From: Archangium gephyra
GTDB lineage: Bacteria > Myxococcota > Myxococcia > Myxococcales > Myxococcaceae
Assembly (NCBI RefSeq): GCF_001027285.1
Contig: NZ_CP011509.1
Location: forward strand, 11,928,501-11,992,500
Reading direction: 5' to 3'
DNA: 64,000 bases
Shown: one piece after another, positions 15,944-16,561 of the stretch
How the letters are laid out: every line of letters begins with the position of its first letter
How positions within the stretch are numbered: position 1 is the stretch's first letter
Notes under the pieces: model-generated
Told to the model about the DNA's origin: nothing
The model's input: the letters and a program-made list of their open reading frames with translations, nothing else
The model's database searches: none
Made by a program: the position numbers and the translations under genes

Positions 15944-16561
15944 ATGTTCCTCAAGGACGTCGAGACGCACGAAGGCACGGGCCCCTATTCGGAGCTCATC
16001 CGGCGCGCACGCGGCAGCGGAGTGCCTCCCTCGGGGCTGTGGCACCTGCTCGCCTTCAAGCCGGAGATGACGGAGGCGCTGACGCAGTTCACGCAGGCGG
16101 CGATGCGCGGCCCCTCACCGCTCCCCGCGGGCATGCGCGAGCTGATCGCCGCCTTCACCTCGCGGCGCAACCAGTGTGTGTTTTGAACGAACTCCCACGC
16201 CGCGGTCGCGGCGCGAATGCTGGGCGATGAGCAGAAGGTCCAGGCCATCCTGGAGAACCTCGACACGGCTCCCATTCCGGAGGCCGAGCGGGTGCTGTTC
16301 CGTTTCCTGGAGAAGGTGAACCGCGAGCCGGAGCACATCCGCCCGGAGGACGTGGAGGCGGTGAAGGCGGCGGGCTGGACGGATGAGGCCGTCTATGACG
16401 CCATCACCGTCTGCGCGCTCTTCAACTTCTACAACCGGTGGGCGGATGCCACGGGCGTTCGCGAGCACCCCGTCGAGGTCTACGAGCGCAGCGCCGAGCG
16501 GCTCGCCCTGGGAGGCTATGTCGCGTCCCCACCGCCCGGAGGAGGGAAGAAGACGCCTTAG
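15944..16561 (+). CDS. Probable selenoprotein: AhpD-like / carboxymuconolactone decarboxylase family, TGA (16184-16186) read as selenocysteine
   Basis: Two open frames (15944-16186 and 16217-16561) lie in the same phase, parted only by one TGA. Read through, they give one 205-residue protein of normal length for the peroxidase-related CMD/AhpD family. The TGA falls exactly on the second redox residue of the family motif SxxNxCxxCxxxH: visible is S73, N76, C78, V, F, U81, T, N, S, H85. The expected residue is Cys, so C78-xx-U81 would be the selenenylsulfide/thiol centre used in peroxide or organic hydroperoxide reduction. A GC hairpin with a GGTC loop begins 11 bases after the TGA and fits a bacterial SECIS element. 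The downstream half (MLGDEQKVQAILENLDTAP onward) keeps family-like sequence and so is not decaying. If not Sec, the gene would be a nonsense mutant at one codon. It overlaps convergent cheB by four bases. Confidence 0.8.
16184..16224 (+). promoter_or_regulatory. UGA codon plus SECIS-like hairpin
   Basis: Directly after the TGA at 16184-16186 there is a perfect 6-bp stem (CGCCGC at 16198-16203, GCGGCG at 16208-16213) with the loop GGTC (16204-16207), which starts 18 bases past the TGA. A lower helix CCCA (16194-16197)/TGGG (16221-16224) is possible. Bacterial SECIS elements sit within the coding region just 3' of the UGA, with a G/U-bearing apical loop at about this distance, where SelB binds. 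Assignment is by position and shape, not by a folding calculation. Confidence 0.65.

Follow-up and report, generated by a model that had tools for sequence, protein, structure and literature searches.

The open reading frame at 15944-16561 on the forward strand of the analysed window (the whole 64,000-nucleotide stretch of DNA) very probably encodes a selenoprotein of the AhpD-like, or 'peroxidase-related', family, and the genomic and comparative evidence leaves little doubt that selenocysteine (Sec) would be inserted at its codon 81. The frame runs from ATG to TAG over 205 residues and holds a single internal TGA (16184-16186, + strand), which occupies the place of the second cysteine of the CxxC motif in the frame translation and in the homologue alignment. 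The motif accordingly reads C78-V-F-U81-T-N-S-H85, with 124 codons downstream of U81. An earlier sequence-only reading had placed one in-frame TGA at the second redox Cys, with 124 codons after it; frame translation reproduced these coordinates exactly, and in the alignment with Cys homologues the TGA lies opposite the redox Cys.

With C substituted for U, the window protein scored 113.1 bits against the NCBIfam model TIGR01926 'peroxidase-related enzyme' (cut-off 81.8) and 48.2 bits against Pfam CMD (cut-off 23). TIGR01926 was also matched by all 11 rows of alignment A1, with E values up to 1e-5. The window protein did not reach the equivalog cut-off of NF041238 AhpD_rel_CFYUT (61.5 versus 175 bits), the match being confined to positions 223-338 of the 357-position model, nor the cut-off of the YciW-related (seleno)protein model NF053654 (19.6 versus 310 bits). 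Since the cut-offs of the two NCBIfam (seleno)protein models that it resembles lie so far above its scores, it is plausible that automatic annotation splits such genes or calls them broken.

Conservation of the in-frame TGA

The TGA recurs throughout the phylum. Among 195 Myxococcota genomes we found 40 full-length homologues (E at most 4.1e-98, the window gene counted), and the active-site DNA of all 40 was read: each match holds one TGA, and in 40 out of 40 it is at this site. A first search of relatives, covering 59 genomes including the source genome, had already returned nine genomes (source included) with a nearly full-length homologue of at least 55% identity, and the TGA was present in 9/9. 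Archangium violaceum Cb vi76, of the same genus, is among the strains that have it. The genus mate G003, which is rated 100% complete, gave no match to the gene despite carrying SelA and tRNA-Sec. A sequencing error is very unlikely because the same TGA is found in every full-length homologue of the phylum, and the error that the sequence-only reading had named as a possible refutation was thus not borne out by the data.

The gene is also present in named metagenome-assembled genomes (MAGs) of Gemmatimonadota and Acidobacteriota, and two outer-group samples centred on these MAGs comprised 396 and 395 genomes, respectively. The Acidobacteriota group yielded 13 full-length matches (E at most 1e-64), all of which were read, nine as Sec and four as Cys. 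The Gemmatimonadota group yielded 24 (E at most 1.3e-72); all 20 entered in the counts are Sec forms, as is one further match in G671 that stands outside the counts, so that 21 of the 24 were read altogether. The core clade over the three phyla comprises 73 rows, with TGA at the site in 69 and TGC (Cys) in four. A second TGA is absent from the aligned stretch of all 69 core Sec rows. The freely obtained counts are 40/40 and 69/73; the 69 out of 69 in the synonymous-site set described below holds by selection.

Residues on both sides of the TGA are conserved as well. In all 69 core Sec rows we found Glu at position 66 (codon 16139-16141), Cys at position 78 (16175-16177), the first residue of CxxU, and His at position 85 (16196-16198), all on the + strand; by spacing, Glu66 and His85 take the places of Glu118 and His137 of Mycobacterium tuberculosis AhpD. 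Position 80 is Phe in 67 of these rows and Tyr in two. Outside the CxxU motif, Cys157 (16412-16414) is conserved in 66/69 and might serve as an extra resolving residue. We compared the window gene with 19 of the 45 other representatives, 18 of them in the core, and in 18 out of 18 core rows dN was lower than dS on either side of the TGA. The nineteenth row, L025, which falls outside the core, is saturated, and its dN exceeds dS upstream of the TGA.

These observations bear on the rival reading in which the TGA really ends translation or stems from a sequencing error, leaving either a pseudogene or an 80-residue N-terminal piece followed by a 114-residue C-terminal piece re-initiated from the ATG at 16217. 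Open reading frames of exactly 80 and 114 residues do exist, and a relative, A. lansinium, carries a broken fragment (L036). Set against this are the recurrence of TGA at the same codon in 40/40 phylum homologues and 69/73 core rows with no second TGA, the low dN after the TGA, the conserved residues on both sides of it, and a hairpin that accompanies the TGA and is not kept in the nested Cys forms. We rejected pseudogene, stop and sequencing error on this conservation and consider them highly improbable.

The core-clade counts above derive from a 93-row set defined by the pattern C/S/T-x-x-U/C-x-x-x-H, to which no core row of the 73 was lost. Excluded from the set were duplicates of genes already included (L051, L052, L055-L061, L082, L105 and L125), remote CMD loci (L026-L035 and L037-L039), the fragment L036, L102, and two loci with TGA at the site that escaped the pattern, L022 and L085. 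Several apparent candidates were dismissed on inspection. The second match in the source genome (5087676, L102) reads C-A-F-C and its TGA is an ordinary end; in L030, L038 and L039 the single TGA scored also ends the frame, the motif again being C-A-F-C; and that scored in G186 is terminal, with TGC at the active site.

A bSECIS-like hairpin downstream of the TGA

The sequence-only reading had noted a hairpin with a GGTC loop 11 bases past the TGA, and we recovered it as a bSECIS-like stem-loop at 16198-16213 (+ strand), in which 16198-16203 pairs with 16208-16213 over six pairs. The spacer between the TGA and the stem is 11 bases (16187-16197), and the stem opens with the last base of the His85 codon. 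The apical loop, GGTC (GGUC in RNA), lies at 16204-16207 on the same strand, 17 bases after the TGA, and has G in its first two positions. With the T of the TGA numbered 0, positions 14-19 pair with 24-29 and the loop is 20-23. The bSECIS model in the available portion of a 2026 review has an apical loop of 3-9 nt with G in the first two positions, an upper stem of 4-16 bp and 16-37 nt from the UGA to the apical loop (PMC13188914). The window hairpin, with a loop of 4, a stem of 6, the loop GGTC and a distance of 17 nt, falls within these published limits.

The folding energy is nothing out of the ordinary: among 5000 draws of synonymous codons, 14% were equally stable when 24 bases were folded and 38% when 37 bases were, and we therefore discarded folding energy as proof of the hairpin; pairing of this kind can arise by chance in G+C-rich DNA. 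The hairpin stands out by its conservation, not by its energy. The identical 18 bases of the stem-loop, CACGCCGCGGTCGCGGCG, occur in 61 of the 69 core Sec rows, and most of the variants departing from them retain pairing. All six pairs form in 67 rows and five in the remaining two (L109 and L111).

Covariation points the same way. The set of 53 distinct Sec rows takes in the remoter rows L019-L021 and L086-L089; 99.1% of its cells are paired, with two-sided changes at five of the six pairs (15 cells). None of 500 shuffles attained any of the five measures. When the register was slid by 1-3 columns, pairing fell to 17-79%, and the covariation score, 0.182 in the original register, did not exceed 0.056. 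L025, a remote Sec row whose loop is shorter by one base, was for that reason excluded from this alignment; in the common register it has one of the six pairs, and it folds into an eight-pair stem of its own instead.

Synonymous sites are also constrained where the hairpin lies. Across 40 representatives under 90% identity, synonymous differences averaged 0.12 over codons +4 to +9, compared with 0.46 over 171 other columns, and the six-codon window of the hairpin had the lowest value among 172 windows. Conserved Ala columns gave 0.10-0.19 for the four within the hairpin, compared with 0.50-0.58 for six elsewhere.

Selenocysteine machinery and the cysteine forms

The sequence-only reading had proposed a search for the Sec machinery, and all four components are encoded in the source genome (12.49 Mb, a single contig): selA (E 4.3e-144), selB (327.3 bits versus a threshold of 242.25), selD (378.4 versus 125) and a tRNA-Sec (selC) with anticodon TCA (73.2 bits versus 47). 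Its proposal of Sec readthrough is accordingly supported by the machinery, the recurrence of the TGA and a hairpin within bSECIS limits. The SelD gene of the source genome (G000:C1:4081289-4082215) has an in-frame TGA of its own (A-N-C-A-G-U), and its downstream hairpin also carries GGTC.

Sec machinery accompanies the Sec form across genomes. SelA together with a high-scoring tRNA-Sec was found in 9/9 genomes that have a homologue of at least 55% identity (the source included), full-length SelA (E below 1e-100) in all 27 Sec-form genomes tested from the two outer groups, and SelA in both named MAGs bearing the Sec form (Gemmatimonadota and Acidobacteriota). Sixteen genomes have remoter Cys-type relatives alone, of which seven were read as Cys and nine were termed Cys-type because no stop lies inside the match; full-length SelA was present in two of them (G530 and G564), and the rest gave no match or short weak ones. 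The SelA test covered 47 genomes plus G195 and G196, out of 89 outer-group genomes with a match (32 and 57 in the two groups), and 40 matching genomes, for example G210, G352 and G437 of the Acidobacteriota group, lie outside it. In two genomes of the Gemmatimonadota group, G671 and G835, the CxxU AhpD-like gene lies immediately 5' of selA, followed by selB on the same strand (G671:C4:452500-461500, where selB was scanned from an internal start, and G835:C1:728000-738500), and tRNA-Sec is found a few kilobases further on, on the opposite strand. A GTPase adjoining the locus L054, considered as a candidate SelB, proved to be LepA.

Decoding of the UGA as Cys or Trp, through a near-cognate tRNA or a changed code, would yield a readthrough product that is indistinguishable at the DNA level. 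This explanation does not fit the covarying bSECIS-like hairpin after the UGA, the distribution of full-length SelA (27/27 Sec-form genomes versus 3/20 Cys-type genomes tested) or the position of the gene directly 5' of selA-selB in two genomes, and we regard it as extremely improbable. Insertion of Sec at codon 81 remains our preferred reading.

The tree of 93 rows (77 Sec and 16 Cys) requires four Sec/Cys changes; it was rooted at the midpoint, and the long-branch warning concerns mainly rows outside the core, and also L111, L114 and L117. The four core Cys rows, L114-L117 (G282, G413, G566 and G555), all from the Acidobacteriota group, form one branch with support of 100/97, nested in a supported Sec-plus-Cys group of 11 (100/100). 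We read this branch as a single Sec-to-Cys replacement within the core clade. These nested Cys rows encode near-identical peptides after the motif (HAAVAA, HAAVSA, HAAVAS and HAAVTS) through other codons, and retain three to four of the six pairs. Among the 12 remote Cys rows, 11 have two to four of the six pairs and one, L122, has five. Full-length SelA was found in one of the four core Cys-form genomes (G282), the other three being without it. The nested Sec-to-Cys change, with the hairpin not kept and three of four genomes without full-length SelA, offers a compact natural experiment on bSECIS loss, and the nearly fixed hairpin of the Sec forms could readily serve to report SelB specificity in the three phyla.

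Predicted chemistry and relation to known systems

The predicted structure of the window protein (pLDDT 85.5) is helical; Cys78 immediately precedes helix 79-93, and Sec81 falls close to the beginning of that helix. Its best sequence matches in the PDB are the peroxidase-related structures 3c1l, 6k40, 2pfx, 2prr and 2oyo (E 2e-18 to 2e-15), and the same five are the best fold matches of the predicted model (TMq 0.66-0.70). Cys133 is the attacking Cys of AhpD. The available text of PMC3141380 describes the AhpD proton relay as Glu118-Cys130-Cys133-His137 in M. tuberculosis, with His132 as a fifth residue, and that of PA0269 as Glu36-Cys48-Cys51-His55, with Tyr50 as the fifth. Measured against the relay so described, Glu66, Cys78, Sec81 and His85 of the window protein are in place and the middle His is Phe80.

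These positions suggest how the protein could work. UGA codon 81 would be decoded as selenocysteine by SelB and Sec-tRNA, directed by the hairpin 11 bases downstream, and Cys78 would form a CxxU redox pair with Sec81 at the N-terminus of a single helix. Glu66 and His85 may activate the selenol, much as in the AhpD proton relay, with Sec81 as the probable attacking residue. The protein would then reduce an organic hydroperoxide, or hand electrons to a peroxidase; Cys78 would close a Cys-Sec selenenylsulfide, which a cellular dithiol could subsequently reduce. On balance we favour such peroxide or thiol-relay chemistry, with moderate confidence.

An alternative is that Sec is inserted and the enzyme is no peroxidase: it might act as a thiol-disulfide oxidoreductase that depends on Sec, or carry out reductive dehalogenation as Bmp8, a debrominase of the CMD family, does. 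Sec in the iodothyronine deiodinases is a chemical precedent for a dehalogenase, Bmp8 is itself among the sequence matches (E 1.1e-6) and the fold matches (E 6.7e-4), and no peroxide-defence gene was found among the scanned neighbours. We nevertheless consider this alternative unlikely: 3c1l, 6k40, 2pfx, 2prr and 2oyo are far ahead of Bmp8 by both sequence and fold, and the Glu-Cys-Sec-His set has the spacing of the AhpD relay as far as the latter is set out in the available source. A more speculative proposal, which we think quite doubtful, is that the gene represents a Sec-dominated subfamily, as yet without a name, which in some soil bacteria is linked to the Sec machinery itself and performs a selenolate reaction at which CxxC relatives are poor (for example lipid hydroperoxide reduction by one enzyme or, in aerobes, reductive dehalogenation), and that the stem-loop reports the sequence preferred by SelB of these three phyla.

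The genomic neighbourhood was set aside as a clue to the substrate. Ahead of the window gene stand a PAS histidine kinase and response regulator, as a pair, and the gene converges with a chemotaxis cluster of the opposite strand (CheB and CheR). Little of this context is kept across the flanks of 28 loci: CheB adjoins the gene solely in four genomes of the same genus (G001, G002, G004 and G005), and only G001 has the kinase and regulator beside it. The 3' ends of the window gene (TAG, + strand) and cheB (TAA, - strand) overlap at 16558-16561. We found no peroxiredoxin or AhpC among the four window neighbours scanned, and no peroxide-defence gene among ten ORFs beside the four homologues L053, L054, L017 and L107; three of the ten ORFs matched no family. 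The A. lansinium fragment (G001:C1:1571724-1574984) is a second, truncated copy in that genome, spanning approximately residues 120-202 with 83% identity and without the Sec half, and an ORF near it resembles a transposase.

AhpD-like CxxU selenoproteins have been published, as the available portions of the sources attest: 27 sequences from the Sargasso Sea (PMC1088965) and 299 'AhpD-like 1' proteins in the Global Ocean Sampling set (PMC2398784). They are listed under COG2128 in the available text of a 2022 review (PMC9312934) and under TIGR01926 in that of the 2026 review, where NF041238 is also given as CxxU (PMC13188914). The window gene would therefore belong to a known kind, and the claim of the sequence-only reading that such proteins are among the bacterial selenoprotein families agrees with these listings. 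What the present analysis adds is a selenoprotein subfamily with good support, its members here coming from Myxococcota, Acidobacteriota and Gemmatimonadota. A search of the open PMC literature found no title on myxobacterial selenoproteins and found TIGR01926 in PMC13188914 alone, and neither 'Myxococc' nor 'myxo' occurs in the main text of PMC13188914, PMC9312934, PMC1794560, PMC12013277 and PMC5029168. We found no description of the window clade with its nearly fixed hairpin in the open literature; this silence is weak evidence of absence, since it concerns main texts without supplements and open papers only. The occurrence of Sec in an aerobe was given no weight as a surprise, because the sources, in the portions available, differ: aerobes are said to retain selenoproteins only seldom (PMC13188914), whereas in a 2016 survey 40.4% of Sec users favour aerobic conditions (PMC5029168).

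Compared with AhpD itself, the overall fold match is weak (1lw1, TMq 0.41). Glu, Cys, Cys (Sec in the window protein) and His have the same spacing in M. tuberculosis AhpD, in PA0269 of Pseudomonas aeruginosa and in the window protein; the latter differs in having Sec for the second Cys and Phe80 for His132/Tyr50, the AhpD and PA0269 residues being those in the available text of their description. Among the peroxidase-related structures, 2oyo and 2pfx, whose alignments were examined, have Cys at the second motif position. NF041238, the 'alkylhydroperoxidase-related (seleno)protein' model, has the AhpD-like core in common with the window protein, and its name implies C-x-x-U, but it spans 357 positions against 205 residues and the score is far below its cut-off. 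The closest likeness is to the AhpD-like CxxU family of TIGR01926/COG2128, which, as represented in the available portions of the reviews, shares with the window protein the family model, the CxxU motif and a bSECIS after the UGA. Unlike that published family, the window clade has been sampled in Myxococcota, Acidobacteriota and Gemmatimonadota and carries a nearly invariant 18-base stem-loop.
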